DNA from: a virus
DNA length: 45,611 bases
Virus record (IMG/VR): IMGVR_UViG_3300028920_000112
Span: 1-45,611 of that record
Reading direction: 5' to 3' (one strand)
Shown here: one piece after another, positions 8,422 to 45,611 of the stretch
Numbering within the stretch: the first letter of the stretch is position 1
How the letters are laid out: each line of letters begins with the position of its first letter
Notes under the pieces: generated by a model
The model's input: only the letters and a program-made list of their open reading frames with translations
Databases searched by the model: none
Told to the model about the DNA's origin: nothing
Made by a program: the position numbers and the translations under genes

Positions 8422-9867
8422 TTAATAATCCATTCCGTAATTTGCCATTCCGGCTATTTTTTTATTATCTAATGGTTCTTCTACAAAATCCTTGTTATCT
8501 ATAAATACTGGCTGTAGTAATTGCTCGCCATAAGCCATTGTGTCCACTATATCGTCCCAGCGGCTTGAGCCTATGGTTAAGAGCTCATCACGTGCTTCTA
8601 TATGGTTTGGGTGTATAAAATAACGTCCCTGCTCAAATAAAGGCTGTAAAGCTGCGATAATCCTTTGTTTCTTGTTTCTCTTTGTTACATTAGTGCCTGT
8701 CTGGGTAAATGTGTTCTTCAGGGCTACTATCGGTATTCCGATATTCTTTTCTGCACAATATTTGACAAAGCTATCATAAAAGCTCTTTTCCACCCCAGCA
8801 TCAGGAATTCCCACAGCAGTTGTGGTATTTCTGTTAGACTGCCATAGGTTTATAATAAGATTGAAGAATTCTGCCTGTGGTGCGTGTGTCCTTATATATG
8901 AAGCCAGATAGCGTTTCATCCCCTGATCCATAATAATATGGCTGGCAACCTTATAATCTGCTTTCTCATCTTCCGAATAGGCAGGGTCAATAGCCAATAC
9001 TCCCGTATAGACTTCAGGTAATGTCTTCCAGTATCTTATGTTTTCGTCCTTAATCGGTGCAGTTTCATCAGAAACAGGGTCGTTCATATATTCTGCTGCA
9101 AATGCCCACGTACCTATTTCCCTTTTCCTGTCCTGTAACCTTTCGTGAAACCAAAGGTCTTTCCAGAGCTCGTGTCCCTTTTCTTGTTTACCATCTATGT
9201 AGGCTTGGTATTTTCTTTTCTTCCAGCCGTTATCAATAGCCAGAAGGTCTGATAGCACGGAAAGGGGATGTATAATCGTGCCTATCATTATGAATTGACC
9301 CTCTGGCATCAATGTATTCAAACAATCCTTAAATATCCACGCTTTTAGCTTTTTGCGTTGGTCTTCTGATTCTACTGACTCGTTGGTCTCCAAATCGTCA
9401 CAAATCAGCGTATCAGGTCTAAAACCACGTATCTGACCTCCTGCGCCTCTTGCTCTTATGTTTACATACCTGTCGTTTCCGAGAATGATGTGGTTTTCTG
9501 TCCACTTCCCAGACCTTAAGTCCCCGAAAAACGCCAGTACCTTCTGATTTTGTTCCAATTCCCTCTTAATCTTACGTAACCACTCTATTGCAAGTGTCTC
9601 TGAAGCTGAAATTATAGTAATATCTTGTCTTTTTTGAAAAAGAGCCAACCATAAAGGATAAAAAACACTGCAAATGGTTGATTTCCCGTGTCCTCTGGGT
9701 GTTGCCAATATAATTCTTTGTTCTTTTGGCAGAAGATTATATATTTCTAAGTGGAATTCAGGTATCTTACTTGTCAAATAGTGTCTTAGGAAGTATTTTG
9801 AGAACTCCAAGAAGTCACTTTCAAACAATTTGTAATATTGTAGTACCTGTTCCTTAGTTAATTCCAT
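8422..9867 (-). CDS. terL: terminase large subunit
   Basis: 481 residues: an ATPase that drives DNA packaging plus an RNase H-like nuclease that cuts the concatemer. Walker A is TPRGHGKS (56-63), Walker B is LICDDLE (154-160), with the SAS coupling-type segment near 88. The nuclease half starts with LAIDPAYSEDEKADY (D294) and has a late acidic patch WDDIVD near 440. It is followed by the portal after 9 bases. Its start overlaps the end of a small zinc-ribbon gene. Close to Terminase_6-type large subunits. Confidence 0.95.
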   Translation of the reverse strand: MELTKEQVLQYYKLFESDFLEFSKYFLRHYLTSKIPEFHLEIYNLLPKEQRIILATPRGHGKSTICSVFYPLWLALFQKRQDITIISASETLAIEWLRKIKRELEQNQKVLAFFGDLRSGKWTENHIILGNDRYVNIRARGAGGQIRGFRPDTLICDDLETNESVESEDQRKKLKAWIFKDCLNTLMPEGQFIMIGTIIHPLSVLSDLLAIDNGWKKRKYQAYIDGKQEKGHELWKDLWFHERLQDRKREIGTWAFAAEYMNDPVSDETAPIKDENIRYWKTLPEVYTGVLAIDPAYSEDEKADYKVASHIIMDQGMKRYLASYIRTHAPQAEFFNLIINLWQSNRNTTTAVGIPDAGVEKSFYDSFVKYCAEKNIGIPIVALKNTFTQTGTNVTKRNKKQRIIAALQPLFEQGRYFIHPNHIEARDELLTIGSSRWDDIVDTMAYGEQLLQPVFIDNKDFVEEPLDNKKIAGMANYGMDY

Positions 9868-10034
9868 AATTCAGGCTTATCATATTTCTTTATTGATTCC
9901 AACATACCCTTTTTTAATTGTTCTAATTTGATTTTACTAACATCTTCTCCACATTTACAAATATATTGGAATTTCTTGGGTGTAGTAAGATTAACCATTG
10001 TTTTTATGTCTATTTTACAATTAGGACATTTCAT
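9858..10034 (-). CDS. small zinc-ribbon protein
   Basis: 58 residues with CPNC at 3-6 and CKCG at 26-29, a zinc-ribbon layout, followed by a charged helix. Its ATG overlaps the stop of the 54-residue gene upstream (ATGA), and its own end overlaps the terminase start by 10 bases. No separate ribosome site is seen, so translation is probably coupled. Possibly a DNA- or terminase-associated accessory protein; function unknown. Confidence 0.6.
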   Translation of the reverse strand: MKCPNCKIDIKTMVNLTTPKKFQYICKCGEDVSKIKLEQLKKGMLESIKKYDKPELWN

Positions 10035-10195
10035 AATCTAATTAGGGCTGGCAGTTGGCTGTTGTATAACAAAATTATTGTAACCGGCTTCGGAAATACA
10101 CACAGGTCTGCAATACAATAACAGTCATAGCCACCTTCATATTCGACTATGTCTAATGATTCACTTTTGCAACTGGGACAAAATTTAGGCTTCAT
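10031..10195 (-). CDS. small cysteine protein with zinc-knuckle N-terminus
   Basis: 54 residues: FCPSC near 5-9 and CYC near 25-27, then a hydrophobic C-terminal stretch. The C-terminal residues ALIRL are encoded by one copy of the repeated CTAATTAG element found three times in this gap. The start lacks a good ribosome site. It may be a remnant or a recombined gene rather than a functional one. Confidence 0.4.
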   Translation of the reverse strand: MKPKFCPSCKSESLDIVEYEGGYDCYCIADLCVFPKPVTIILLYNSQLPALIRL

Positions 10196-10368
10196 TTAAG
10201 TTGTCGATTATGTTGTCGTTTAGGTTGTCGATTATCGTTCAGTAAACGATTATCGTACCATAATCTAATTAGGGTCAAACATAATACCCTTTAATTGACC
10301 AGTTAAAAACAACCAAGCATCTCTCTCTATTTCTTCGTAATAGTAATAATTCACCATAATCTAATTAG
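10035..10368. repeat. dispersed AATCTAATTAG elements (three copies here, one at 13891)
   Basis: AATCTAATTAG occurs at 10035-10045, 10262-10272 and 10358-10368, each preceded by CAT and followed by GG; a fourth copy is at 13891-13901. The core CTAATTAG is a perfect 8-base palindrome. Two copies also share the following GGGCTGGC. Flanking pieces such as GCAATACAATAAC recur near 10112 and 10491, so this gap (to about 10563) looks like duplicated and decayed small-gene or operator sequence. I see no convincing gene in 10256-10563. Confidence 0.6.
10200..10255. repeat. 12-bp tandem repeats plus CGATTATCG pair (iteron- or operator-like)
   Basis: Three consecutive 12-base units read GTTGTCGATTAT, GTTGTCGTTTAG, GTTGTCGATTAT (10200-10235), followed by a spaced pair of CGATTATCG (10229-10237 and 10247-10255, start to start 18 bases). 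No gene crosses it convincingly. Such clusters bind repressors, replication initiators or packaging proteins. Its place between the two terminase genes makes a packaging start site worth considering (inference). Confidence 0.55.
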
Positions 10369-10563
10369 GGCTGGCTATCGTGAGCCTTCTACAAATTCTT
10401 CTCGTAATATGCTTTGGGCTATTTCTTCCCTTATCAATGCATAGCACTTACGCCCGTATTAGAGAAGTTATTAGGGCTGGCAGTTGGGGCTGCAATACAA
10501 TAACGGTATCTACCCAAGGTTTTCCTTTCTTGTATCAGGCTACCACGCCACAGCCCATATAAT

Positions 10564-10704
10564 CTATTTACCCCAGCCGTATCTGAGCCTGCGTCCTCTG
10601 CCTGCCCTGCCACGTCCTCTGCTGCCGCCTGCCCTGTCTGCCTTGGCTCTTGCGTTACAGTTTTTTCCTCTGCCTAATCTTCCAGTTCCATCTCTGTTTG
10701 GCAT
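10564..10704 (-). CDS. small Gly/Arg-rich protein resembling DUF5320
   Basis: 46 residues beginning MPNRDGTGRLGRGKNCNARA and ending in RGRRLRYGWGK. The ATG has an ideal AAAGGAG site. The MP-x-x-DGTG opening and Gly/Arg tail recall the DUF5320 family of small anaerobe and phage proteins of unknown role. The coding DNA is markedly more GC-rich than the surroundings and contains short internal repeats, which suggests acquisition or repeat expansion. Possibly nucleic-acid binding because of its charge (inference). Confidence 0.55.
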   Translation of the reverse strand: MPNRDGTGRLGRGKNCNARAKADRAGGSRGRGRAGRGRRLRYGWGK

Positions 10705-10753
10705 CTTCTTCTCCTTTACCCTTTAGAATTGCCCTTCTTTTGCGTTTTAAAGC

Positions 10754-10888
10754 CTATTTAAGCCTGTTTCTGGTGTTAAATGGCATCCTATGCCTATTTC
10801 TCAATTCCTGCACAATATCTTTTATAAGTAGTGTCCCCCAGATTGTCAGAGCTAACAGCCAGATATATCTAAAAAGTAAGTTTAGCAC
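10754..10888 (-). CDS. small single-span membrane protein
   Basis: 44 residues from a GTG at 10888 that has AGGGGT 5-6 bases upstream. One hydrophobic segment (about residues 3-22, rich in Leu, Trp, Ile) is followed by a basic tail (RNRHRMPFNTRNRLK), giving an inside-positive orientation at the C-terminus. It sits between the terminase genes. Function unknown. Confidence 0.4.
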   Translation of the reverse strand: MLNLLFRYIWLLALTIWGTLLIKDIVQELRNRHRMPFNTRNRLK

Positions 10889-10945
10889 TTGTTACCCCTA
10901 TTTGAAAACTGCATAGAATTTAGTTTGTGGTATTATACTATTAAT

Positions 10946-10982
10946 GGGGCGTGAGGTGGGGGTTCGCCTACCCCTATGCCCC
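10946..10982. other. GC-rich imperfect hairpin at the small terminase stop codon
   Basis: GGGGC (10946-10950) faces GCCCC (10978-10982), with further GGGG/CCCC pairing inside, ending in the stop codon of the small terminase gene. No U-tract follows on the minus strand. It could pause transcription or protect the mRNA end; a packaging signal is also possible. Confidence 0.35.
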
Positions 10983-11777: not shown

Positions 11778-13040
11778 ATGAACCGTAAGCAAACAAAAAA
11801 ACTAAAAAAGAAAATCATTCAAATGCTTCTGCAAAATTTTTCACGCTATACCATAGAGCAAAACATCAAAGCAATAATAGAAACAAATCATTTGACTTGG
11901 AATAGAAGTTTAACCCTTGAACGTTGGATATATTTTGTCATATATAGATATTTAAAAAATTCATACTGTATTCTATGCAATAATGATTTAAATATCAATC
12001 ATTATAGAGTTGTTGGACAACAATTATATTGCGAAAGGTGCTTCCACGATAATTTTTTTGTTTGTAATGATTGCAGAGGTACTTTTAATATCGACTACCG
12101 ATTTGAAGACCCCTCAGGAAATTATTATTATTGCGACGATTGCTACAATGAAAATTTTGAAAGATGCGTATCTTGCGAGGGTATTTTCAACAGAGAAGAC
12201 ATCAATGAAGACGGATATTGTTATAATTGCAATTCAGAAAATTCAGTTATTAGTGGATATTTAACACGACCGCGATTAGTCTTTAATAAACTACCTTATG
12301 AAAATACTACTTTTTTAGGCGTAGAGTTGGAAGTTGAACCCCCAAAAGATGAAGACGATAATTGCAATATTACTGACTATGCAGAAAACTTTCAGATGTT
12401 TTTATCCTCTAACGGATTGGAAGACCATTTTATTCTAAAAGACGACGGTTCAATTCAGGGATTTGAAATAGTTTCAAGTCCATTTACGCTGAAATTTGCC
12501 CATCAAAAATTAAAATTTTACAAGATGTTGAAATATCTTCGAAACAATGAATATACTTCTCATAACAATGGTAGATGCGGAATGCATATACATATAGGTA
12601 AAAATTGCCTGACACCTTTAGATATTAAAAAGTTAAGAATTATATTCAGTAAATGCCAAGTAGAGTTATATAAATTATCTAATCGTAGAGGCAAAAATAC
12701 ATCTTATTGTCAATATGAAGCCTTTAATCTTAAAGCAATTTTAAGAGGTTACAACCAAGAGGGAAGATACCACGCTTTAAATTTGAATACTTCTGCGACT
12801 TACCCTAAAAATACGATTGAATTCAGAATATTCAGAGGGACATTAAAATATTCACGCTTTATTGCTAATCTTCAATTTTGTGATGCCATTATTGATTTTG
12901 TTAAATGTATAGGTATAAATTTTTTAATCCTTAACCCCACAAATGTTATTTGGAATACTTTCATAAAACATTCAAAGTTGAAAAATAGGTATAACAGTTT
13001 ATTAAAACACTTAAAGAGGGAGAATTTGCTATGTGTTTGA
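11778..13040 (+). CDS. amidoligase (Amidoligase_2-like) with six CxxC zinc knuckles
   Basis: 420 residues. The N-terminal part (about 62-152) has six CxxC pairs (C64/67, 85/88, 96/99, 119/122, 130/133, 148/151), enough for three zinc sites of LIM or RING-like layout. The C-terminal part has the marks of the glutamine-synthetase-fold carboxylate-amine ligases: GVELEVE (181-187), CGMHIHIG (267-274), RYHALNLN (330-337) and EFRIFRGT (348-355), which form the ATP/Mg site. These enzymes join an amine or ammonia to a carboxylate. The next gene, a class II glutamine amidotransferase, overlaps by 10 bases and could supply ammonia. The target (protein, peptide or peptidoglycan) is unknown; the zinc domain may recognise it. 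Confidence 0.85.
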   Translation: MNRKQTKKLKKKIIQMLLQNFSRYTIEQNIKAIIETNHLTWNRSLTLERWIYFVIYRYLKNSYCILCNNDLNINHYRVVGQQLYCERCFHDNFFVCNDCRGTFNIDYRFEDPSGNYYYCDDCYNENFERCVSCEGIFNREDINEDGYCYNCNSENSVISGYLTRPRLVFNKLPYENTTFLGVELEVEPPKDEDDNCNITDYAENFQMFLSSNGLEDHFILKDDGSIQGFEIVSSPFTLKFAHQKLKFYKMLKYLRNNEYTSHNNGRCGMHIHIGKNCLTPLDIKKLRIIFSKCQVELYKLSNRRGKNTSYCQYEAFNLKAILRGYNQEGRYHALNLNTSATYPKNTIEFRIFRGTLKYSRFIANLQFCDAIIDFVKCIGINFLILNPTNVIWNTFIKHSKLKNRYNSLLKHLKRENLLCV

Positions 13041-13882
13041 TAATAGTCAAAAAATCAGGCGTAAATTTGCCACCATTAGAGCATTTGACAAATGCAGAAA
13101 AAACAAATTCTGATGGCATAGGTATTTGTTACAAAAAAAATGGTAATATGGTAAAAATCAAAAAAGATTTTAAAAATGCTCAAGAATTACATCAGTTTTT
13201 ACTTGCTAATATAGAGATAAGCGACCCTCTGATAATACATTTTAGATTTGCTACTCACGGATTAAAAGACATCGGAAACAGACACCCATTTCCAATAACA
13301 AAAAACAAAAGTTTGTTAAGGAAACCATTACTGAATTGCTCCGTTGCTTTGGCTCATAATGGTGTATTAACACAGTTTAATAACCACCATAAATTTAGCG
13401 ATACCCAAAAATTGATTTTGAATGTGTTAAGCGAACCGTCAATTAAAAATAACCTTGAAAATAAAGCAATACAAACACTTATTGAGAATTTTATCGGAAG
13501 CGATAAATTAGCGATATTGAATAGTAAAATCATAATGTTTGGAAAATATATTGAAGACAAAGGTATATACTATTCGAATACAAGTTATAGAGCAAGTGTT
13601 ATAGGTTATCAGCAGAATAATAGCAATTTAGACTATTTTCATACTTGCGATGGGTGCAAGAAGACAAAATCCGTTGACTATGTGCAAGTTGACGGAATGT
13701 ATAGCGATTATCTGTTGTTATGCAAAAAATGTCAAAAGAAACTTGAAAAAGATAAATTGTATATATTAGGTGATGAAGATGAGCAATGTGAGAATTGTCT
13801 CCAATTCTTTAAGCCTAACACCTTAAAATTGACTCATTATGGTAAGCTATGCCCCAAATGCGAAAGAGAATACATCTATTGA
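13031..13882 (+). CDS. class II glutamine amidotransferase-like Ntn hydrolase with C-terminal zinc knuckles
   Basis: 283 residues. Cys2, exposed after Met removal, is the expected N-terminal nucleophile. NSDGIG (26-31), HFRFATHG (70-77), HPF (85-87) and AHNG (108-111) match the glutaminase domain of class II amidotransferases, which release ammonia from glutamine. The C-terminal part (about 206-277) has four CxxC pairs. GAGGGAG precedes the ATG. The overlap with the amidoligase implies joint expression and probably a shared reaction. A protease-like or regulatory role for the Ntn domain is the main alternative. Confidence 0.85.
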   Translation: MCLIIVKKSGVNLPPLEHLTNAEKTNSDGIGICYKKNGNMVKIKKDFKNAQELHQFLLANIEISDPLIIHFRFATHGLKDIGNRHPFPITKNKSLLRKPLLNCSVALAHNGVLTQFNNHHKFSDTQKLILNVLSEPSIKNNLENKAIQTLIENFIGSDKLAILNSKIIMFGKYIEDKGIYYSNTSYRASVIGYQQNNSNLDYFHTCDGCKKTKSVDYVQVDGMYSDYLLLCKKCQKKLEKDKLYILGDEDEQCENCLQFFKPNTLKLTHYGKLCPKCEREYIY

Positions 13883-32603: not shown

Positions 32604-32939
32604 CTAAAAGATAAATGGTATTAACATCTTTGTTCTTTTCATATATTCCATATACTTATCACCGAAGTGCATTAGTAAAAAACTTTCTTCTTTATCTATT
32701 CTGGAAAGTATAAACTGGATAGATATATATGTTAAACATATTGTTATCTTCCAACCTGCTAATACACTGTATACACCGATACTTGATATTAAACCACCCA
32801 AATACATAGGGTGTCTAACATATCTGTATATTCCTGTTGTGATTAATTTTGGGGGTGGTATTATTCTCCAAAAAGGTTTGACTTTATTTTGTAACAAAGC
32901 AAAAAGTCTTATTAATAAACCTATGAAGATCAATATCAT
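32604..32939 (-). CDS. isoprenylcysteine carboxyl methyltransferase (ICMT)-like membrane protein
   Basis: 111 residues, three or more membrane spans. The signature GIYRYVRHPMYLGGLI (about 37-52) and the C-terminal EESFLLMHFGDKYMEYMKRT region are those of the ICMT/PEMT group of SAM-dependent membrane methyltransferases, which methylate lipid or prenyl-cysteine groups. A short form with the binding residues H-P and E-E present. It sits among virion genes, which is unexpected: possibly it modifies host lipid or a virion lipopeptide. Overlaps the next gene by 4 bases. Confidence 0.75.
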   Translation of the reverse strand: MILIFIGLLIRLFALLQNKVKPFWRIIPPPKLITTGIYRYVRHPMYLGGLISSIGVYSVLAGWKITICLTYISIQFILSRIDKEESFLLMHFGDKYMEYMKRTKMLIPFIF

Positions 32940-33781
32940 ATCAACCCACCAACCATACTCCCTATTCCACCAACGAGAGAACCAATCATTTGATTTTGAT
33001 TCTGTTGTTGACCTAATTGATAATTAGCATTGGTGTTGTACATATTAGAGTATGCTTGTGAGTAGTTTCCATAGTTTGTACCCATTTGTCCCATTACAGC
33101 ATTAGGATTAAATCCCTGACCGTATTGTAATTGTTGTTGATACATAGGTGTATTAATCTGTGGTGTCCCTACTGTACTTGGTTGCGTTAATGGTTGTCTA
33201 CCCGTCATAGATAAACCTAAGTTCCTATAATAGTTTTGCCAATCCTGTTCCTGTTGCATTAAACCTCTTGACATATAATCAGCACCGATACCTCCAGCTA
33301 CATTAGTTCCAAGCTGTGCAGCCATATCACTACGGTATTGTTTTTTCATCCAATCAGGAACAGAAGAAGTCATACCTTCTCTTGCCTGTTGTGCTAAATT
33401 CTCTTGCAACCCAGCAGTCTCAGGATAAAGGCTTTGTGTAATATCCCTTTGCAACGCAGCATATTCTGGTGCATATTTCTGCTGAATCTCATACTGCTGT
33501 TCAGCTTGTTCAGGAGCATACTCCATCTGCATCCTGTTTTGCAAATCCAATAACTTCTCAGCATATGGAACAGCCAAATCTAACTGTTGCTGCATAAGTT
33601 GTGGTTCATATTGCATCTGAGTTTCATATACACTTGGTAATGATTGCTGCCAAGCCTGTATAGCATCAGCTGTACTCGGTTGTGGAGGTGGAGTAGGTTG
33701 TTGAATACTTACTTCACCTTTCTGTAAACCTAATAAGCCAAAACCACAGATAAATTTTATTAACCTATTTAATAATTGCAC
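32936..33781 (-). CDS. Gln-rich virion protein with Gly-rich C-terminal hydrophobic segment
   Basis: 281 residues, very Gln/Tyr/Met-rich (QMQYEPQLMQQQLDLAVP near 55-72; repeated Q-N-Y elements) with a hydrophobic end (GSLVGGIGSMVGGLI). An N-terminal hydrophobic start (LLNRLIKFICGFGLLGL) could be a signal or membrane anchor. Probably ejected or tail-associated, part of the same module as the three genes downstream. Not a recognised family. Confidence 0.55.
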   Translation of the reverse strand: MQLLNRLIKFICGFGLLGLQKGEVSIQQPTPPPQPSTADAIQAWQQSLPSVYETQMQYEPQLMQQQLDLAVPYAEKLLDLQNRMQMEYAPEQAEQQYEIQQKYAPEYAALQRDITQSLYPETAGLQENLAQQAREGMTSSVPDWMKKQYRSDMAAQLGTNVAGGIGADYMSRGLMQQEQDWQNYYRNLGLSMTGRQPLTQPSTVGTPQINTPMYQQQLQYGQGFNPNAVMGQMGTNYGNYSQAYSNMYNTNANYQLGQQQNQNQMIGSLVGGIGSMVGGLI

Positions 33782-34217
33782 CTTTTTCTCCTTTTCCTAA
33801 CCCTCTGTGTCTTAAAAACCTTTCTATACTATAAGTCTTTAATGGTTTTTCGCAGGGTTGTTTGTTATCATATCCTCTCTCAAAGCTGATATATTTAAGT
33901 TTAGGGAATGTCCATAATGCTTTTGTTAATAGTTGTCTCATAAGATTTTTGTTGCGCCAATCTTCCCTAATTATTAAATCCAAAACTGTTGCTACTGTTC
34001 CTGATGGACTCACATTCCATCTGCACACTGCTGCTATTTCATTATTTGCATCATATACTACAAATGCAGTTTTATATTGCCAGTGTTGTTGTATATATTC
34101 TGCTATGGTTTCTCTATCGGTATACGTAGAGTATTTCATAACAAAATCTACAATCTTCTTTAATTCCTTATCCTGTAATAGCACTGAACACTGGTATGTA
34201 ATAAGCAGTTGTTCCAA
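33765..34217 (-). CDS. GNAT-family N-acetyltransferase
   Basis: Up to 150 residues. AFVVYDANNEIAAVCRWNVS, VLDLIIREDWRNKNLMRQLL and the later F-E-R-G strand follow the GNAT fold, with the R-N-K-N-L-M segment at the acetyl-CoA pyrophosphate loop (usually R-x-x-G-x-G/A; here the Gly are replaced, so binding may be unusual). The start is uncertain: the TTG at 34217 overlaps the upstream gene; an in-frame GTG about 30 bases downstream is the alternative. It acetylates an amine or protein; target unknown. It lies in the tail region, not in the glycan cassette. Confidence 0.65.
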   Translation of the reverse strand: MEQLLITYQCSVLLQDKELKKIVDFVMKYSTYTDRETIAEYIQQHWQYKTAFVVYDANNEIAAVCRWNVSPSGTVATVLDLIIREDWRNKNLMRQLLTKALWTFPKLKYISFERGYDNKQPCEKPLKTYSIERFLRHRGLGKGEKGAIIK

Positions 34218-35921: not shown

Positions 35922-37479
35922 TCTCATACTCCTCTGCAAAGGTAATAATGTTATACCCATAAACTACTATTGGATCTGTATTAGTGTCAGTGTTTGTAAA
36001 TTTTATCTGTATAGTTCTAAAAGACCCTAAGGTATCTAAATGAAACTTCTTCCTGACAATATAACTATCTGAAAGAGAAAACGGTAATGCAACCGGTAAT
36101 GTGGGTGCAGTAGAACTGGTTAAATCAACTGTTCCTAAAGACTGAAATGATTGTCCATCTAAAGAAACACTTACCGATAAACTATCTCCACTACCTGCAA
36201 CATCTGCTTCTATTTCTATTTCTCCACCATTCTTCTCAACTAATGGTTGTCCGAAGTTTTCTTCCTTACCAATAAAGGTAGCAGATACTGCCGTGCTATT
36301 GTCTGTAGTAGAATCCAACACTCTATAAATTTTAGCATCAGTTGAATCTATTGCATATAATCTTTCTTCTCCACTAATTGTTATTTTAGAAAATGCTGCT
36401 ATATTCCAATCATCAAATATTGTCCAAGCCTGTTGTGCAGGATAATATACCCATACCTGATTATTATAAGAAGAAGAATTAACTGGTAATGACAAAAAGT
36501 ATTTATTATCCCAGTATACTGCATTAGCTTTACTTATATATCCCCAAGAAATAGTATTATATTCATCTTTCAATGGGTAACTTAAAGGATATGAAACACC
36601 TAATTGTAACTTATCCTGTTGGCTTCTAAATACAGCCCTTACTCCATCTTTTGCCAAAAAGTAAATATCATCACCAACCTGAGCTACCGTATTACCACAG
36701 ACACAACCTATATCAAGTATCTTTTCAGGTAAGTCTGTAGCTGTTGGTGTAGCAGATGGGTTAATACCCCATACTTGATCTGCCCCTATAACAACTAAAC
36801 CTGTATCTCTTAAACCTAATATTGCTCTTTCAGTACCTACTGGTATTCTAAAATTATTACTAACAGTATCAAATGCTGAAGAATAATCCGCTGGAAAAGC
36901 ATCAGACCAATATAATAAATTAGATTTTAATACCCATACCCTATTTCTGTAATAAGTTCCTACTGTTGATTTAGGGGGGCTATCACTCCCGGTACCAGCT
37001 GTATTTCCTAAATCCTGCATAGTATGAGATTGGTTCATACGAAACCAGTTATCAGTCCCATTACCAACAAATACTACATCTCCTTCACCACTTTCACCTG
37101 CCTTAAACATCGTTGTTAATAACCCAGTAGTAAAGTTTGTCTTGTGTTCTACAAAAGAACCAGAACCAACCCAACCCTCTAATTTAGTTGAGTGAGTTAT
37201 TAATAGTTCTGGTGTCCCACCATCAGGCTCAAAACCAAAAGCTCCAGTACCAGTAGTGGTGCCTACATCTTCTACAAGACTTAGACCACTTCTTTTACGC
37301 ATTTCACCCATAACCCCTATATCCCAGTTGCTTAAATCTTCGGCTTGATTATCTCCTAAGTTAGATGCGTGTTGTCTTGTATTAATACCACCACTGAAGT
37401 CGTGTCTAATAACAAACAATCTCTGATCATCTGGTGCTTGTGTTGAATTAACTATATATTTGAATTTAGCTCTATCCAT
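35914..37479 (-). CDS. putative tail nozzle/tubular protein B-like beta-propeller
   Basis: 521 residues. RHDFSGGINTRQHASNLGDN near 25-44, a Lys-Arg-Ser-Gly turn (RKRSG) near 60, and a repeated strand pattern fit the beta-propeller nozzle proteins (tubular B-like) of podoviruses. It follows the adaptor gene by one base, the same A-then-B order as in T7-like tails. Sequence similarity by eye is general, so the name is by fold and order. Confidence 0.65.
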   Translation of the reverse strand: MDRAKFKYIVNSTQAPDDQRLFVIRHDFSGGINTRQHASNLGDNQAEDLSNWDIGVMGEMRKRSGLSLVEDVGTTTGTGAFGFEPDGGTPELLITHSTKLEGWVGSGSFVEHKTNFTTGLLTTMFKAGESGEGDVVFVGNGTDNWFRMNQSHTMQDLGNTAGTGSDSPPKSTVGTYYRNRVWVLKSNLLYWSDAFPADYSSAFDTVSNNFRIPVGTERAILGLRDTGLVVIGADQVWGINPSATPTATDLPEKILDIGCVCGNTVAQVGDDIYFLAKDGVRAVFRSQQDKLQLGVSYPLSYPLKDEYNTISWGYISKANAVYWDNKYFLSLPVNSSSYNNQVWVYYPAQQAWTIFDDWNIAAFSKITISGEERLYAIDSTDAKIYRVLDSTTDNSTAVSATFIGKEENFGQPLVEKNGGEIEIEADVAGSGDSLSVSVSLDGQSFQSLGTVDLTSSTAPTLPVALPFSLSDSYIVRKKFHLDTLGSFRTIQIKFTNTDTNTDPIVVYGYNIITFAEEYENE

Positions 37480-38396
37480 TAGTATAAATTATCCTTATTA
37501 TATGTAGCTGGGGAAAATTGTTGTACTTTGTTTGGTTTATTCTCCATATCCCAGATATAATCACTTAATCCACTTGCAAACTGTGCTTCAAAAACAGATG
37601 CTTTTTGGAATTGTCTTTTATATCTCCAAGCGTCTGCTGTTGCACCTTTTTCTATTAAATCTGCTACATCTATTAAAGGATAATCATAATCCTCTGTCAT
37701 AGGCATAGGTTTAATAATATAAGGTATTTTAATACTTAAAGCAGTTGATGGTACATAATGAAAACCTATCTTTTTATAAAACGCTGTATTTCTTGTAGGC
37801 GCAAGAGTAGCTACAGTAACTGCACCACTATTTGTAGTAACAGTAATTGTACCTGTAGTATCTGCACTCTTTGCTACATTCAATATTCTTGTCCACTGTG
37901 CAGTAGTTGTTACTGCTGATGTTCCTGTTAATGTCTGTGTTTCTGTAATCTCAACATTACTTGCTACACCTCTTATTGTAACAGTCTGTGTAGTATCTGA
38001 AGCTGAACTTGAAACTATACTTGCTACGCTTGCTGAAGTAGGTTGTGTATTTATTGTGTCATCATATAAATAGTAACTTCCTACATCGCCATTATCAGAA
38101 AAAGAATCTGGATATGTACTAATAAGTTTTTGTAAATCAGATTCTGCTAATTCATTCTCATTAGTTGCATCCCTAACTGATAAAGGTTTATAAAAATCAT
38201 CAGGCAATACGTATTCCTGTTGACTCGCTGTAGTAGTAAAGCTATAGTCTGGTCTTATTTTATTCCAGTTTGTAGCTCTTAGTATTTGAAAATATCTATT
38301 GTTGAGATAGACACCAATAATAGATGCCATAGAGGTATCTGTGTCTTGTATCTCATTCCCAACATTAGTTTTCATTGTAACAAATGGTTTATTCAT
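37479..38396 (-). CDS. putative head-tail adaptor (tail tubular A/SU10-type)
   Basis: 305 residues. N-terminal helical part with YLNNRYFQILRATNWNKIR (about 30-48) and FTTTASQQEYVLPDDFYKP, and a C-terminal helix (WRYKRQFQKASVFEAQFASG) are typical of adaptor or tail tubular A-like proteins; the middle (about 110-200) is a Thr/Ser/Val-rich Ig-like insertion. Because the capsid is also of the SU10 type, an SU10-like adaptor is the natural reading. It is the last structural gene before the cassette, overlapping it by 8 bases. Confidence 0.65.
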   Translation of the reverse strand: MNKPFVTMKTNVGNEIQDTDTSMASIIGVYLNNRYFQILRATNWNKIRPDYSFTTTASQQEYVLPDDFYKPLSVRDATNENELAESDLQKLISTYPDSFSDNGDVGSYYLYDDTINTQPTSASVASIVSSSASDTTQTVTIRGVASNVEITETQTLTGTSAVTTTAQWTRILNVAKSADTTGTITVTTNSGAVTVATLAPTRNTAFYKKIGFHYVPSTALSIKIPYIIKPMPMTEDYDYPLIDVADLIEKGATADAWRYKRQFQKASVFEAQFASGLSDYIWDMENKPNKVQQFSPATYNKDNLY

Positions 38397-39036
38397 TTAA
38401 TAGCTCCAATAATTCTTTTGGCGGTGTGCAGTCTTCTAATGGTTGATTTAATATATTCTGTATGTTCTTTTCATCAACACCATACCATTGTTTGTTTTTA
38501 AGTTTCCAATTAATCTTATCCTGAGTGAAAGCATAACCCATATGGTGCATATAACCTTTATGGAAGTAGCCTTCTCCGACGATATTTCTTATCTCATAAA
38601 AGTGGACGTGTGGTCTTACAATTACAGCAGGTCTATGTGTGCGTATAGGATAACGCTTATTAATATCCTGTGAATAATCAATAACGTTGATATACCCCAC
38701 ATCAGCTTTCTTCTTTTTTATTCCCCTGATTAATCCAATCTGGTCTACAGGGAGTAAAAATTCATCAGCATCATTAATAAAGACATAATCATAGTCATAG
38801 AATATCTTTAAAGCATCGTTGAATACTTCGTGCTGTTGCTTATCTAAAAAAGTATAAGTATCAACGTTGTTGTAAGCTAATTGCTTGACTATCTCAACAG
38901 TCCTGTCATTTTGGACATCGCTATTGCTTGGATAAGAATGAGCAACTATTACTCTATCTAACCAAAACAGATTTTTTAAAACTCTCTCTAAATAATCCGT
39001 CAAATAAAAACATCTTACTATTGCACCTAATCTCAT
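38389..39036 (-). CDS. GT2-like glycosyltransferase
   Basis: 215 residues. LGAIVRCFYLTDYLERVLKN, RVIVAHSY and NDADEF (88-93, a DxD metal site) follow the short GT2-like group (glycosyltransferase family 2_4/92 type). Later HTxxxRPxV-like segments (RTHRPAVIVRP) are also usual in this group. It transfers a sugar from a nucleotide donor. Overlaps the radical SAM gene by 4 bases. Acceptor unknown. Confidence 0.75.
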   Translation of the reverse strand: MRLGAIVRCFYLTDYLERVLKNLFWLDRVIVAHSYPSNSDVQNDRTVEIVKQLAYNNVDTYTFLDKQQHEVFNDALKIFYDYDYVFINDADEFLLPVDQIGLIRGIKKKKADVGYINVIDYSQDINKRYPIRTHRPAVIVRPHVHFYEIRNIVGEGYFHKGYMHHMGYAFTQDKINWKLKNKQWYGVDEKNIQNILNQPLEDCTPPKELLELLNE

Positions 39037-40103
39037 ATCCAGTTAACGTGTGGCGGATTATCCTTTATTAAATAACTTATAAATTTATTTTTATTATCAA
39101 ACCAACAGGGATTCTTATTGCATACAGCTGCTAAATGGTCTATTTTGAGCCAATTCTTTCTTCTATCCCCAAACCACACTTCCTTAAATGTGTTTCCTAT
39201 AATACTCCCAAAATCTATTGAAGCATTATATTTTAATGTACAACAAGGATATACCCTACCATCTGCTCCTATGATAGCTGTAAAATGTTGGTAGCCGCAG
39301 AAATCATATCCTTTATGTTTGTAATCTAAATTATCAAGGTGTGAAGTGATAAAATTAAATACCTTAAAATTTTTATCTTCTAATTGCTTAGTTTCTCTGG
39401 ATATTTTTTCTACATCATCCCAAATATCTTTATAGAGTCCTATACCCTGTGGTGTATAAGCTATCGTAAGTCTTATATTCGCTACCCCTAAATCTTTTAA
39501 CATCTTGGCGCAATCCAAAGTCTCTTTATAATTTAATGGATTAACCATATAAGAAACACCAATGACTGTCTTCTTAAAATCATTAACACAAGTCTTTAAA
39601 TTACTAATTGCTCTATCAAAATTATTTGGTGGTGTTGAATGAACTTTAGAATATGTCTCTTTAGTAAAAGCATCTAAAGAAATCCTTAACCAAACCAATG
39701 AACTTAAAAGACCGTGTTCGTGGTACCCAAATAACTTACCTAACAAAACACCGTTTGTTACCAAAGATGTTTGTAACATATTTCTATTTGCAAGTCTTAG
39801 TATCTCTGCAAAATATGGGTGCATCAATGGTTCACCACCACCGGTAAACTCTACAGCCTTAATTCCTTCTCTTACAAATTCTTCAAATAATGATTCAAAC
39901 CTTTCTAATGGCAATTCGTCTTTTTCATTAAAAAGGGCATTTAATTTATTATTCCTACAAAATCTATAAAAGCAATATACACACTTATGGTTACAATGAT
40001 TAGTCGGATCTATTTGCACTGAGGTGGGCATTATCAGTTCGCCCTTCCTGAGTTTCTCTAATCTGTCTAAATGGTGTGCTGCTTTAAATGGTGAATAAAT
40101 CAT
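39033..40103 (-). CDS. radical SAM enzyme with SPASM-like C-terminus
   Basis: 356 residues. CNHKCVYC at 37-44 (C37, C41, C44) binds the [4Fe-4S] cluster, TGGGEP near 87-92 binds SAM, and a C-terminal auxiliary set (FCGYQHFTAIIGADGRVYPC then CNKNPC) resembles SPASM/Twitch domains. Such enzymes modify peptides, or act in cofactor or sugar chemistry. It lies among glycosyl- and methyltransferases. GGG-EP and MoaA-like spacing are intact, so activity is likely. Substrate unknown. Confidence 0.85.
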   Translation of the reverse strand: MIYSPFKAAHHLDRLEKLRKGELIMPTSVQIDPTNHCNHKCVYCFYRFCRNNKLNALFNEKDELPLERFESLFEEFVREGIKAVEFTGGGEPLMHPYFAEILRLANRNMLQTSLVTNGVLLGKLFGYHEHGLLSSLVWLRISLDAFTKETYSKVHSTPPNNFDRAISNLKTCVNDFKKTVIGVSYMVNPLNYKETLDCAKMLKDLGVANIRLTIAYTPQGIGLYKDIWDDVEKISRETKQLEDKNFKVFNFITSHLDNLDYKHKGYDFCGYQHFTAIIGADGRVYPCCTLKYNASIDFGSIIGNTFKEVWFGDRRKNWLKIDHLAAVCNKNPCWFDNKNKFISYLIKDNPPHVNWI

Positions 40104-40711
40104 TTTGTTATATGTACTCCATACCAGCGAATATTAAATTTAGGATAATCGTCTATAAGAAAAATATTCTTTACTTTTCCACCAGATTTTCTGATAATAA
40201 TATCCATATCACTTATATGTCTGCAAAATTGTAAACCTAATCCATCAATATATGTTTCATTATTTATTAATGTTGTCGGTTTTATATATTCAGAAAATTG
40301 TATAGCAAACAAACCGTCATCTTTTATGCTACGTATAACATTGGTCATCTGCCTTGTTAAATCTTCAGTATTCATATGTTGAGCAACTAAATGAGAAATA
40401 GCAAGATTATATGTATCTGGTGGTAAATCCTGAATCTGATTATCTAAATAAGTTCTTTCAGTCCATTCTTTTACTTTTTCAAGTGCATTAGGAACAATAT
40501 CTAATGCAGTCACTATCATTCCTTTATCAAATAAATCTTTTGTGCAGTAACCAAAACCAACACCTATATTAAGAACTTTATTACCTTGTTTAATTCTATC
40601 TTCTATTTTAAGTTCCTTCCATACTGTTTTACCATTATAACCACTAAGATTTTTTAAATTACTTGTTTTATGCTGTTCTTCCCAGAATTTTAAAATCCAT
40701 TCCTTTGTCAT
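40100..40711 (-). CDS. class I SAM methyltransferase
   Basis: 203 residues from the ATG at 40711, which overlaps the previous stop (ATGA); a TTG five codons earlier is a weaker choice. KVLNIGVGFGYCTKDLF (45-61) is motif I, ALDIVPNALEKV gives the acidic motif II, and AISHLVAQH is motif IV-like. Methyltransferase_11 type. Probably methylates a sugar or glycan of the cassette product. Confidence 0.8.
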   Translation of the reverse strand: MTKEWILKFWEEQHKTSNLKNLSGYNGKTVWKELKIEDRIKQGNKVLNIGVGFGYCTKDLFDKGMIVTALDIVPNALEKVKEWTERTYLDNQIQDLPPDTYNLAISHLVAQHMNTEDLTRQMTNVIRSIKDDGLFAIQFSEYIKPTTLINNETYIDGLGLQFCRHISDMDIIIRKSGGKVKNIFLIDDYPKFNIRWYGVHITK

Positions 40712-41865
40712 TTTACCGTCATCCAATAAAACTTGCGTTGTGGGATAAGATATTCTCCAAGATATTCCAAGTTAAAATATTCTTTGGCTGCCTTTAATAT
40801 CTTCTCTTTAGTATATTCCTTAGCAAACCACTTGCTACTTTCAGCTAATTCTTTTGTTGTCGGATCAGTAATATCAAGTGGGAGTTCTATAAATAAGTTC
40901 TTGGTTAATAATGATAATATATTAAATATCTTTCCGTGGCTCTTGACCATCATAAAGATGTGGTGATATAAAGAACAGACTGTAACTATGTCAAATTTAG
41001 GGAACCTTAATAACTTCTCAGAAAACTGTTCACATAAGAACTCAACATCAAGATTTAAAAATTTACTAACATCGGTCGCTAAACGTATATCAGAGTATTC
41101 TAAGTCAATGCCGATTGCCTTACTTGCCCCTGCTTGTTTAGCTTTTAAAACATAAAATCCTGCACTGCATCCTATATCTAAGAACCTCTTACCACCCATA
41201 GCATTCATAAACTTCTGGTTCATAAAACCTAATTTACAGTTCTGTGATTCCGTCGGGATTAATTTTTTATTGCTGTCTATTGAATATCTGTGCCTTATTG
41301 TCCTGAAATATCTTAACCTGTTTAACAGTTCATCTCTTGTTCTGTCATTCTTGCTCCATTTTGTATCATCGCAATACCATTTGATAAACCTTAGAAAGCA
41401 TTCCCCCATCCATCCTATATGAATTGAATTAAGATTTTCTATCTTCACAAAATTAAGATAATCAATCATCTTGATTATCCCTGCTGGATTAATCATAAAA
41501 TTCTCAATAGACGCATCCCCATTGACTATTCCCTGTCTATATAGCTTTTCCAAAATATCAAAGACTTTGACAAAAGTTATATGCTTATTCTGTTTTTCGT
41601 TAATTAATGGTGTATAATCTGCAAGGTATTCCATTAAAATATATACCTTATTGTTTTCTTCCCACAAATCATATATCGGAACTAAATCTATTTTGTCTTG
41701 TAATGTCTTATATATTTCATAAGAATTCTTTAAGTCTTCTGCCTTAACCCCATAACTTGGCAACCATTCCTTAAGGATAAATTCCTTACCGCCGATTTCT
41801 ACCAAATCAACATTAGAAAATTTACTTTTATATATATTCTTTTTTACTGTTAAAGATTTTTCCAT
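40708..41865 (-). CDS. kinase-methyltransferase fusion
   Basis: 385 residues. Residues 1-200 look like an aminoglycoside-phosphotransferase or lipopolysaccharide-kinase-type domain: a Lys strand (FILKEW, 29-34), catalytic loop NGDASIENF (115-123; D117, N122, with Asn where His is usual) and MIDYLN (133-138; metal Asp135). Residues 225-385 are a SAM methyltransferase (RFLDIGCSAGFYVLKAKQAG near 227-246, then GIDLEYSDI and CSLYHH). One protein could phosphorylate and methylate the same glycan, as WbdD-type chain terminators do. This parallel is inference. Confidence 0.8.
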   Translation of the reverse strand: MEKSLTVKKNIYKSKFSNVDLVEIGGKEFILKEWLPSYGVKAEDLKNSYEIYKTLQDKIDLVPIYDLWEENNKVYILMEYLADYTPLINEKQNKHITFVKVFDILEKLYRQGIVNGDASIENFMINPAGIIKMIDYLNFVKIENLNSIHIGWMGECFLRFIKWYCDDTKWSKNDRTRDELLNRLRYFRTIRHRYSIDSNKKLIPTESQNCKLGFMNQKFMNAMGGKRFLDIGCSAGFYVLKAKQAGASKAIGIDLEYSDIRLATDVSKFLNLDVEFLCEQFSEKLLRFPKFDIVTVCSLYHHIFMMVKSHGKIFNILSLLTKNLFIELPLDITDPTTKELAESSKWFAKEYTKEKILKAAKEYFNLEYLGEYLIPQRKFYWMTVK

Positions 41866-42377
41866 ACTAATAAAGCCCCACCTTTTGGCGAACCTGAACC
41901 TTTGTGAAAGAACGGAAATATTATTTCCTCATATCCCATATTATTAAACTCATCTGGTATCCATCCACACTTATGTTCTAAATAAATATTTTCGTGATTT
42001 GGATAGTTTATATAACCCAAAGTAGTAAAAATTACAACTTTATGTATTGCAATACGTTGTGCATTCTTTAAAAACTCATACCCTTCTTCTTTATTAATAT
42101 GTTCTATAAAATCAGTAGCCATTACTACATCAAAACTTTTGTGTCCTATATTAACCAACTCCTTATAAGACATTACTCTGGTTTCAATGCCGTTAAAATT
42201 AGGATTATCTTTAAATACTTTAGGATCTATGTCAGTAGCCACAATACTGTTTTTTAATGTCTTTAATTGTGATATGACATTCCCTTTTCCAGAGCCAACG
42301 TCTAAAATCGTTACATAATCATTTATAAGTAATTTGAGGTTTCCTATATAAGAATCTATTATTCTTGCCATATCCAT
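41850..42377 (-). CDS. class I SAM methyltransferase
   Basis: 175 residues. TILDVGSGKGNVISQL (23-38) is motif I and ATDIDPKVF gives the acidic residue, then MATDFIEHI. Overlaps the kinase fusion by 16 bases and abuts the previous gene by one base. A compact Methyltransf_11/23-type enzyme; probably acts on the same glycan as its neighbours. Confidence 0.8.
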   Translation of the reverse strand: MDMARIIDSYIGNLKLLINDYVTILDVGSGKGNVISQLKTLKNSIVATDIDPKVFKDNPNFNGIETRVMSYKELVNIGHKSFDVVMATDFIEHINKEEGYEFLKNAQRIAIHKVVIFTTLGYINYPNHENIYLEHKCGWIPDEFNNMGYEEIIFPFFHKGSGSPKGGALLVWKNL

Positions 42378-44071
42378 TAGACTAAGCTCTCGTAATATTT
42401 ACCCCACATATCGCATATTCTTTCTGGGGAATAGTATTTTTCCATCCACTTGCGCCCTTCTTTCTTAATATCTTTTACTTGTTGTGGGTGGTTTAATAAC
42501 CATATCGTATTTTTTGCCAATTCATCAACACCACGACAATTAATTATCGGTGGTGGAGTTCCATTACCAAATTCTTTATAGGCTTCTGCAACTACTGGAT
42601 CTAATCTTGCCAAACATACCTGTTCTTGACATAATGTTTCCCAACCAACCATTCCTATAAAACCCTGTGCCATATTATCTATACAAACATCAAACATCTT
42701 CCTGTTGTTAAGACAATCTTCTGGAGAGTAACGATTAATCCAAGCCTCATAATCTAACTTATATCCATCTTTTAATAACCATTCAAAAACCATATCTACA
42801 GCATCTTTGCCTTTGTTGTAAAGATAATTAGCTAAGAATAAAAACCTCATCGGGTCGTTATTACGGGATATAGGTAAATATAATGAATTATTGATTGGAA
42901 TGGGATTGACCATCCATTTAACAAACTTATAAATATCTGCTACCAACGGGCTACAACTTAATATCTCAACACCCTTATGATGTAATGTTTCAAGTTCTTC
43001 TGCTCTAAAACTCCATTCTCCACCGTGTAGATGAAAGATTAACTTCTTATTTTTAGTATATTTCTCCCAATCAAACTGTGGCAAATAATAAGCCTTTCTG
43101 TTAACATCTGACAACCAAAACGTATTAAAATGAAGTATATCAGCCCATTCAAGAACTTTTATTACTTCTTCTTTTTGGGTAGGTAAAAATAAATCAATTT
43201 TAGATGTTAGATTAGTCTTACCCCCGAGAATATGCCTGATGTGGATATTAGTCATACCATTCATTAGTTCAGTGAAATACATTCCTACTGAAGCACTATC
43301 CCACCAAGGATGTATGTGTGCAACTTTAACCTTAGAATCTTTCTTGATTATCTCAACCTTGGGTAATGGCTTTTCTATTTTTATATCTCTGCGTTTTTTA
43401 GCATCTTTCTTGCATCTATCTGAATCAGCCCAATTAGTAGGAACTGAATGACGATTTGTAAGATTATCCTTATGATTACGCCAAAATGCTAATTGTTTGT
43501 TAATATAAAAGAAATCAGTATGTTCTGACATTCTTAAAAACATATCATAATCTTCACAAGGTCTTTCATCATATAGACCTACTTTATCTTTCAAAGAACG
43601 GCGATACATATAAGCTATGCCAATATAACACTCTTTTAATAACCTATCTTTACTATATTCATTGTTATTATATAGAGGATAGATCTTACCATCCATCTGA
43701 AGGGCACTTGTATTAGCATAAACAAATTCTACTTCTTGATGTTTACAAAGCACATCAACTAAATCAAATAACCAAGTTGGTTCATACCAGCAGTCTGAAC
43801 TTGCTATGGTTATTAATTCACCTGTAGATATAGAATATCCTGCATTTATTGAAGCCCCTATACCCATATTCTTTAGTTGCTTTAAATATCTTACCCGAGA
43901 ATCCTTAGAATACTTTTCTCTAAGTATCTGCTCTGTGTTGTCTGTGCAGCCATCTAAAACTACTATTAACTGCCAATTCTGATAATTCTGTTTAATGATT
44001 GAATTAATTGATTGTTCAATAAACTTACCATCGTTATAACTGGGCATTATTATTGATACACAAGGCGTCAT
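42377..44071 (-). CDS. two-domain glycosyltransferase (GT2 + GT4-like)
   Basis: 564 residues from ATG 44071, which has AAAGGGG and overlaps the previous stop (ATGA); upstream Met codons lie in the formyltransferase gene. Residues 1-200: SIIMPSYNDGKFIEQSINSI, VVLDGCTDNT and ASSDCWYEP (the DxD place), a GT2 fold. Residues about 245-560: KVAHIHPWWDSASVG, a Gly/His-rich loop (FHLHGGEW) and a C-terminal E-x-LCQEQV, a GT4-like fold. It likely adds two sugars in sequence. Donors unknown. Confidence 0.8.
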   Translation of the reverse strand: MTPCVSIIMPSYNDGKFIEQSINSIIKQNYQNWQLIVVLDGCTDNTEQILREKYSKDSRVRYLKQLKNMGIGASINAGYSISTGELITIASSDCWYEPTWLFDLVDVLCKHQEVEFVYANTSALQMDGKIYPLYNNNEYSKDRLLKECYIGIAYMYRRSLKDKVGLYDERPCEDYDMFLRMSEHTDFFYINKQLAFWRNHKDNLTNRHSVPTNWADSDRCKKDAKKRRDIKIEKPLPKVEIIKKDSKVKVAHIHPWWDSASVGMYFTELMNGMTNIHIRHILGGKTNLTSKIDLFLPTQKEEVIKVLEWADILHFNTFWLSDVNRKAYYLPQFDWEKYTKNKKLIFHLHGGEWSFRAEELETLHHKGVEILSCSPLVADIYKFVKWMVNPIPINNSLYLPISRNNDPMRFLFLANYLYNKGKDAVDMVFEWLLKDGYKLDYEAWINRYSPEDCLNNRKMFDVCIDNMAQGFIGMVGWETLCQEQVCLARLDPVVAEAYKEFGNGTPPPIINCRGVDELAKNTIWLLNHPQQVKDIKKEGRKWMEKYYSPERICDMWGKYYESLV

Positions 44072-44712
44072 ATCTTCCCCTTTGTTAGATATACCTTCTT
44101 GCCATCCCCACATACCATAAAAGCATTTGGATAAGGATTTTGCAAAGAACGGATTTTGTTATAAATATATTCTGCTGGTTTAGTCTTTAATTCTTCTATG
44201 GTTATTTCGCTTTCTTCGGGTTTTCTTCGTTTATAGGTTGTAGATTTCCCAGTTTGTTTATAGCGTTTATAATAAGCCGGGTAACAAAATAATAAATCAC
44301 GGATTAATGATATACCACAAGCTGTTATTCTTTTAAATATATCGTCTAAATCACCATCAAGCGAAAATGTCATCTGATTTACTATGTCTCCAGTATCAAT
44401 ACCCTCATCCATCCTGAATAACGTAACTGCACTTATCTTTTCTCCATTTAATATCTGGTGCTGTAAAGGAGAACCACCCCTGTATTTAGGGAGTGGTGAT
44501 GGGTGCAAACATATACAGATATAATCATTAACTATATCTTTAGGGACTATCCAAGACCAACCTAAAAAAAATATTAAATCTGGTTTTATAGAATGTATGA
44601 GGTGTATCTCTTGATTAGTTTCTAATAAAACAGAATTTGTTGACTTAGTAGCTTTGTATATTTCTTTTGCCCAATCCCTATAACAACAATAGACTATTTT
44701 CATAACACCCAT
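44068..44712 (-). CDS. formyltransferase-like protein (sugar amine N-formylation)
   Basis: 214 residues. HPSPLPKYRGGSPLQHQIL near 70-88 and GIDTGDI near 104-110 are the folate-binding and catalytic loops of the formyltransferase fold, using 10-formyl-THF. The catalytic triad is Asn-x-His...Asp in PurN, Fmt and ArnA; here His70 and Asp106 are present, but the Asn place holds Cys68 (ICLHPS). The short C-terminal domain differs from Fmt. Next to a PIG-L deacetylase, it probably formylates a freed sugar amine. Activity with Cys68 is untested. Confidence 0.8.
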   Translation of the reverse strand: MGVMKIVYCCYRDWAKEIYKATKSTNSVLLETNQEIHLIHSIKPDLIFFLGWSWIVPKDIVNDYICICLHPSPLPKYRGGSPLQHQILNGEKISAVTLFRMDEGIDTGDIVNQMTFSLDGDLDDIFKRITACGISLIRDLLFCYPAYYKRYKQTGKSTTYKRRKPEESEITIEELKTKPAEYIYNKIRSLQNPYPNAFMVCGDGKKVYLTKGKI

Positions 44713-45329
44713 CTTAATACCTGAAATGCTTCTGCGTATTCACAATTACTCTGACTTCCCCTTAAATAAGCTAAACTCTTGATAGCCTTTATACTTCTAT
44801 GTTCTCTGACCTGACTTTTATAATAAGAATATAATTCAATTTTCTTTTCTATATCTATCGGTGTAAATACTAACGGTTTAAATCCACTGCATACTCCGAT
44901 ACTTTGTTGTGTTTCCGGCTGTTCATATATTAATATCTTTTTGACAAAGAAATTAACATCGTGTGGTCTGGCTGCTGTGAGGGATGCTTGGTATATCTTT
45001 CTATGGTCTTGATTATATGAAGGATATGGTATCAATAAAGTATCTGGCTTCAAAATATTAATTAAATTCTCTATTTCGTAGATTATCTTTAATATAGGGA
45101 CTTCATCTAATCTATTAACCACGAATTTGTTTGAGAAAGAACAGGCGCAACCTACTGCATCTAAAAGTTTTCCATTTTCTTCACTATAAATCTTATCATC
45201 TACAGTTGCGTGTTTTTTATTAAAATAGTGTATATGCAGATTATCTTTATTGGTTTTACTTATTAACCCACCACAACCAAGAACCTCATCATCCATATGA
45301 GGACTAAGGATAAGTATCTTATTAAGCAT
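44700..45329 (-). CDS. PIG-L/LmbE-family deacetylase
   Basis: 209 residues. SPHMDDEVLGCGG (9-21) and QDHRKIYQ (107-114) give the zinc-binding His-Asp-Asp...His set of the PIG-L family, which removes acetyl from N-acetyl-amino sugars such as GlcNAc conjugates. Length and the motif order fit family members. It overlaps the fusion gene by 8 bases and the formyltransferase by 13, so a deacetylate-then-formylate sequence is natural. Substrate inferred from family. Confidence 0.85.
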   Translation of the reverse strand: MLNKILILSPHMDDEVLGCGGLISKTNKDNLHIHYFNKKHATVDDKIYSEENGKLLDAVGCACSFSNKFVVNRLDEVPILKIIYEIENLINILKPDTLLIPYPSYNQDHRKIYQASLTAARPHDVNFFVKKILIYEQPETQQSIGVCSGFKPLVFTPIDIEKKIELYSYYKSQVREHRSIKAIKSLAYLRGSQSNCEYAEAFQVLRWVL

Positions 45330-45611
45330 CTGCTGTAGCCCCCAACCAAGTCCAACCAGACTTTCTTATACGTGTTATTTTAATATTCTTAAACCCTACC
45401 TTTTCTAAATGTTCTTTTAGAAGTTCTGGTGTATAAAATGTTTCGTGATATAAATGATCTAACCCATCAGCTTTATGAAAGTCTTTAGCTGTAGGATTAC
45501 CTATCTCTGCTAATTGTTCTTTAGTTAACTCTCTATATTCAGATTCTTTTTCAAGTGTATTAAAAGGCTTTAAAGCATAAGCCCATTCGTGTTCATAAGG
45601 AACTGTCAAAA
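45322..45611 (-). CDS. C-terminal end of the glycosyltransferase-methyltransferase fusion
   Basis: This is the 3' end of the gene that starts at 2720; 45485-45611 repeats 1-127. It encodes the last part of the SAM methyltransferase domain, from TVPYEHEWAYAL to SGWTWLGATADA, and stops at 45322, overlapping the deacetylase start. Alone it would read as a short frame, but the upstream sequence across the junction is open without a break. Confidence 0.85.
   Translation of the reverse strand, partial: LTVPYEHEWAYALKPFNTLEKESEYRELTKEQLAEIGNPTAKDFHKADGLDHLYHETFYTPELLKEHLEKVGFKNIKITRIRKSGWTWLGATADA
45485..45611. repeat. terminal direct repeat, right copy (circular junction)
   Basis: Exact copy of 1-127. 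The non-redundant circle is 45,484 bp. The joined reading frame (2,883 bases, no internal stop) confirms the junction independently. Confidence 0.95.

Follow-up and report, generated by a model that had tools for sequence, protein, structure and literature searches.

A two-transferase fusion enzyme beside the capsid gene anchors a putative virion-protein glycosylation module in an SU10-type phage genome

Glycosyltransferases that act on polypeptides include the peptide S-glycosyltransferase SunS, the flagellin GlcNAc transferase GmaR, ThuS, OGT and SPINDLY. In SunS and GmaR a family 2 glycosyltransferase (GT2) domain is followed by a tetratricopeptide repeat (TPR) domain, and in OGT and SPINDLY the TPR repeats are followed by a GT-B transferase domain. 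In GmaR of Listeria the N-terminal GT2 domain spans ~180 residues ahead of the TPR domain (PMC9638930), and in FlmG it is the TPR domain that binds the flagellin acceptor (PMC7591256). Among phages, capsid glycosylation is established for mycobacteriophages (Freeman et al. 2023, as cited in PMC12619734 and PMC11256854): in Che8 and others the capsid and tail tube proteins bear glycans, and the phages encode glycosyltransferases. Here we analyze IMG/VR virus record IMGVR_UViG_3300028920_000112, a viral DNA taken over its full 45,611 nucleotides (the window), which carries a cassette of glycan-modification genes adjoining the major capsid gene. We consider it probable that this locus is a virion-protein glycosylation module of an SU10-type phage, in which a conserved 960-residue fusion enzyme would act on a virion protein and a variable gene slot would specify an exchangeable outer glycan. 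The transferases of the F1 mycobacteriophage Maravista lie near the 3' end of the genome, unlike the capsid-adjacent cassette described here, and the accessible text of the same two sources describes no variable multi-gene slot beside a capsid gene in mycobacteriophages. Our literature search, outside of which most subscription papers lay, likewise found no earlier description of a capsid-linked slot.

The original prediction, made from the sequence of the window, had described eight overlapping genes covering about 9.8 kb, or a fifth of the genome, across the ends of the record, situated between the capsid gene group and the adaptor/tail genes and devoid of a visible promoter of their own. 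Because the first and last 127 bp of the window are identical (1-127 and 45485-45611), its ends join to give a circle of 45,484 bp, in which the fusion gene, which starts at 2720, reads over the junction as a single intact open reading frame (ORF) of 960 codons (45322-45484 joined to 1-2720, minus strand). On this circle the cassette measures 9,816 bp (21.6%) and runs entirely on the minus strand from 2720 back over the junction to 38389, with overlaps of 1-46 bp between successive genes; these number nine rather than eight, as does the list of the prediction itself. The flanks are an SU10-type major capsid gene on one side (3174-4073, minus strand; Pfam SU10_MCP, 8.1e-60) and an SU10-type head-tail adaptor gene on the other (37479-38396, minus strand; SU10_adaptor, 1.5e-9). 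Since the portal also falls in its SU10 family in Pfam, all three families of an SU10-type tailed phage structural module are present. Sigma-70-like sites show no excess in the cassette (38 versus 53 +/- 7 in shuffles), and an Rfam search of the window returned no matches. The slot, namely the part of the cassette between the fusion and the adaptor gene, has a GC content of 31.9%, below that of any other stretch of equal length in the genome (37% in the structural genes). The predicted extent, overlaps and placement are borne out; most of the domain calls also stand in Pfam, with the exception of the two noted below.

The fusion enzyme shows in Pfam a GT2 remnant, a TPR domain, a GT4 remnant and a Methyltransf_11 domain, the TPR domain coming directly after the GT2 domain as in SunS/GmaR-type enzymes. 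Its GT2 metal site is a DxD at residues 90-92 (LDTDD, beginning at 89), of which D90 and D92, along with D93, are invariant in 25 sequences; motifs of the other domains are also present. Among the matches listed (the best 60), the only solved GT2 enzymes recovered by a profile of the fusion were GmaR (1.2e-17) and SunS (2e-13), which it matches in its N-terminal half. The AlphaFold model of the fusion (mean confidence score pLDDT 86) has SunS, ThuS, SPINDLY and OGT as its top structural matches, and it superimposes on SunS over 294 columns at 3.6 A (TM 0.68 by target). As the GT2-TPR order of SunS and GmaR and the TPR-GT-B order of OGT and SPINDLY are combined in it, the modeled enzyme looks like a SunS/GmaR half and an OGT/SPINDLY half joined on one TPR scaffold. 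With SunS and ThuS, known from the SPbeta prophage and its relatives, it shares a GT-A domain bearing the DxD and a subsequent TPR-like domain; however, SunS is a protein of ~420 residues that lacks the GT4 and methyltransferase domains and modifies a bacteriocin peptide, whereas the phage enzyme is tied to a capsid operon. GmaR shares the N-terminal GT2 domain and the TPR domain after it, but ends in an antirepressor domain, unlike the fusion. The C-terminal methyltransferase is missing in about half of the relatives of the fusion. A genome scan for bacterial copies recovered a single weak locus, in Flagellimonas (33% over 61 residues).

To establish the genomic setting of the fusion we used a search of viral contigs (designated by L numbers) with the capsid protein alone, which was blind to the cassette. 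This yielded 12 contigs whose capsids are at least ~60% identical to it (L002-L011, L013 and L014), and in all ten that extend far enough the genes immediately following the capsid gene are those for a small protein and the fusion. With further members recovered by a search with the fusion, the order capsid, small protein, fusion is seen, apart from the window, in 25 contigs, among which a few are near-identical. The fusion occurs in none of 47 more distant loci of the capsid scan, many of which are partial, and a pattern scan of viral contigs with the adaptor protein recovered no relatives. A further relative, MW202524 (Podoviridae sp. ctKR88, from Manatee Spring), likewise shows capsid, small protein, fusion (31% identical), a 7.7-kb glycan slot, adaptor and stabilization protein, but its fusion has no methyltransferase and its slot genes are different. 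Pairwise identities of the fusion correlate with those of the portal (0.77), small protein (0.73), terminase (0.65) and capsid (0.63), the capsid-portal correlation being 0.70 for comparison, and none of 2,000 permutations reached the values for the fusion. On these comparisons the fusion gene thus behaves as a member of the structural core, its divergence following that of portal, terminase and capsid. In a second arrangement the fusion gene precedes the portal gene (L088, L091, L093, L097 and MW202497). The original prediction had proposed a search for recurrence of the gene order in related phages, and had named as adverse evidence genomes with clean structural synteny whose cassette lies on plasmids or host islands. 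The placement does recur, as a fixed anchor with a variable slot rather than as one gene order; MW202497 does join its capsid and tail genes cleanly with no cassette in between, but its fusion, rather than being on a plasmid or a host island, is found between the terminase and portal genes.

Some of these genes are interrupted. The capsid genes of two contigs (L014:9053-10753 and L013:7013-8110) both carry, after SIRHEW and at an identical codon, an insert of ~0.8 kb with a 215-221-residue ORF bearing LAGLIDADG-like motifs (LFGSLLGDAG and LATWFMDDG); the insert is probably a self-splicing intron, and an Rfam search with it returned no match. In L096, L097 and L062:35151-39470 an insert of 1.6-1.8 kb splits the fusion gene within the GT4 domain; it may be a mobile gene or an intron, and is annotated as groeL in MW202497.

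The slot of the window phage begins, next to the fusion, with a PIG-L type N-deacetylase (44700-45329; 209 residues, PHMDDE motif, Pfam 4.7e-10), whose nearest solved structure is diacetylchitobiose deacetylase, and a formyltransferase (44068-44712; 214 residues, Formyl_trans_N/C, 1.5e-16) matching PDB 1zgh (1e-29), ArnA and sugar N-formyltransferases. Their genes overlap here and homologs adjoin in four other viral contigs (40-48% identity), which at the same threshold match no other protein of the window; this linkage suggests that an amino sugar may be successively N-deacetylated and N-formylated. The next gene codes for a 578-residue protein (42377-44113) with a GT2 domain (2.5e-29) and a match to chondroitin synthase (2.6e-24). 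Its second, GT-B-like half has no Pfam match at 0.01, and the predicted GT4 identity of this half is one of resemblance only. Two S-adenosylmethionine (SAM)-dependent methyltransferases (41850-42377, 175 residues, Methyltransf_11 1.3e-9; 40100-40726, 208 residues, TTG start codon, Methyltransf_11 2.6e-9) flank a kinase-methyltransferase fusion of 385 residues (40708-41865; Pkinase 2.5e-5, weak; Methyltransf_25 1.1e-7). Its kinase part displays FILK, GDxxxEN and IDY motifs, which supply the lysine, the catalytic Asp/Asn and the metal-binding Asp, and by analogy it may add a capping phosphate to the glycan, like the O-antigen chain terminator WbdD, which likewise unites kinase and methyltransferase in a single protein. 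We considered and dropped membership in the WbdD family: only the methyltransferase parts match, and weakly (8e-4), the kinase parts show no sequence match, and the domain order is reversed, the kinase coming first in the phage protein. No relatives of this protein were found in viral contigs or phage records. The remaining genes encode a radical SAM/SPASM enzyme (39033-40103; 356 residues, Radical_SAM 2.2e-18, SPASM 9.9e-9) and a small GT2-like transferase (38389-39036; 215 residues, NDADEF motif). The nearest solved relative of the former is cytosylglucuronate decarboxylase, the substrate of which is a sugar nucleoside. The latter has no Pfam match and was recognized by a weak match to PHROG 13126 (5.7e-4) and by homologs that match GT2.

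That the cassette could build a sugar, as originally predicted, is supported, and it remains to ask on what. One alternative, which we hold to be unlikely, is that in the infected cell a surface or lipid-linked glycan is made or altered, blocking superinfection or the binding of progeny to debris. The combination of GT2, GT4, PIG-L, formyltransferase and a WbdD-like kinase-methyltransferase is also the content of an O-antigen locus, one PHROG match of the 578-residue protein is to GtrB-like enzymes, and a relative encodes the Gmd and DegT enzymes common in such loci. However, the nine cassette proteins have no clear membrane helix, and the initiating sugar-phosphate transferase (PF02397) and GtrA (PF04138) are absent from five records, as is a tyrosine integrase (PF00589), looked for as a sign of lysogenic conversion in a search with serine integrases outside its scope. 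Together with an anchor that resembles polypeptide glycosyltransferases and is constantly linked to the structural operon, this makes the suggested analogy to an O-antigen or capsule locus weak, and virion-protein glycosylation much better supported.

We then compared the slots. Their sizes range from 0.65 kb (L008) through 1.3 kb (L005 and L078), 1.9 kb (L083), 6.0 kb (L077) and 6.4 kb (L103) to 6.9 kb in the window, 7.2 kb (L076), 7.3 kb (L070) and the slot of MW202524. Their contents, mostly sugar-nucleotide and transferase genes, differ by phage: L072 has GT10, GT7/GT2, a GDP-mannose dehydratase and a DegT aminotransferase, the last two being an apparent GDP-perosamine-type pair; L070 has two radical SAM enzymes, a split transketolase, a LicD-methyltransferase, an epimerase and a cytidylyltransferase; L076 has radical SAM and B12 radical SAM enzymes, an aminotransferase, thiamine-enzyme halves and glycosyltransferases; and L083 has a formyltransferase, which with a glycosyltransferase forms one lineage-specific filling. 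Singletons make up 25 of the 89 slot proteins. The window shares with other slots only the small GT2 (11 members in nine phages, more than any other slot family), the radical SAM enzyme (homologs in five other slots) and the formyltransferase. L070 and L103 have all slot families in common even though their capsids are 55% and their fusions 48% identical, and in the middle of the slot most genes reach identities of 62-87%, exceeding most core genes; this suggests that the slot may be exchanged as a unit.

It is conceivable, though we think it quite improbable, that the fusion glycosylates virion proteins while the slot merely collects auxiliary genes of unrelated functions rather than one pathway. 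Most slot proteins of the window indeed lack homologs in other slots, but the assignable slot genes of relatives serve glycan or small-molecule modification, the slot genes overlap, the PIG-L and formyltransferase genes adjoin elsewhere, and a full slot is common to two diverged backbones.

The small protein between capsid and fusion (2731-3120, minus strand; 129 residues) occupies the same place in every core-clade relative, with C28, C31 and C42 invariant. Its N-terminal CxxC..CC module is confined to this clade, and the cysteine pattern reads as a zinc site. It is very unlikely that this protein is an acceptor matured, in the manner of a peptide natural product, by SunS-like glycosylation, the radical SAM/SPASM enzyme and the methyltransferases. 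The substrates of SunS and ThuS are peptides rich in Cys, maturation of peptides is typical of radical SAM/SPASM enzymes, and the identities of the small protein track those of the fusion. Nevertheless, its C-terminal half recurs in post-capsid proteins, mostly Cys-free, of phages with the fusion elsewhere, its model is helical and of good confidence (a structural search with it found no significant match), and several slots have no radical SAM enzyme. Finally, DNA-base glycosylation by phage glycosyltransferases is reported in PMC12619734, but for transferases acting on modified bases here the odds are negligible, as no thymidylate synthase-type enzyme is present in the window genome and four relatives, two of them partial, and the nearest structural relatives of the fusion glycosylate proteins.

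Returning to virion-protein glycosylation, we propose the following order of steps. In the host cytoplasm the GT2 domain of the fusion, held by the TPR domain, would transfer a first sugar to a side chain of a virion protein, for which the leading candidate is the major capsid protein; the GT4 domain would add a second sugar, and the C-terminal domain would methylate the product. The slot would extend and finish this stub: in the window phage more sugars may be added by the small GT2 and the GT2-GT4 enzyme, PIG-L may strip an N-acetyl group for the formyltransferase to put N-formyl in its place, the kinase-methyltransferase may cap the glycan together with the two separate methyltransferases, and the radical SAM enzyme may alter a sugar or a residue. 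Several points weigh against this scheme. The OGT and SPINDLY matches are due in part to domain order and to the TPR repeats, and superimpose poorly (~20 A); in the GT4 domain E-x7-K stands where E-x7-E is usual; the formyltransferase, like its nearest solved relative, is without the usual active-site Asn; and, since the fusion in some relatives lies between terminase and portal, its tie is to the structural operon and not strictly to the capsid gene. Ser/Thr columns specific to capsids of fusion-bearing phages (among them S34, S130 and T201) were considered as potential acceptor sites and discarded as evidence, shared ancestry explaining them equally well.

Elsewhere in the window, an amidoligase and class-II glutamine amidotransferase-like pair (11778-13882, plus strand) adjoins the packaging genes on the opposite strand, and the tail genes include a small ICMT/PEMT-type membrane methyltransferase (32604-32939, minus strand). 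A GNAT acetyltransferase is encoded at 33765-34217. The 1.1 kb between the large and small terminase subunit genes (9868-10981) has no coding-strand ORF of at least 80 residues, and two short Cys-rich ORFs (9858-10037 and 10031-10195) are present there.

Phage virion glycosylation has so far been known from a few mycobacteriophages; here a whole lineage devotes up to one fifth of a small genome to apparent virion glycosylation, by means of a fixed enzyme and swappable accessory genes. Swapping of the slot would give each lineage a different surface glycan, in the manner of a serotype, with shielding or altered adhesion as the possible benefit. More tentatively, we suggest that this may be a capsid-serotype locus of an uncultured SU10-type clade, in which a conserved two-transferase stub enzyme is combined with a horizontally exchanged slot, much as bacterial O-antigens diversify. 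If so, the fusion would be a new compact glycoprotein-building enzyme, in which one TPR scaffold bears a SunS-like transferase and a GT-B transferase, accompanied by a methyltransferase, and phage particles would carry glycan serotypes, with consequences for how phages adhere, are recognized by immune systems and persist in the environment.

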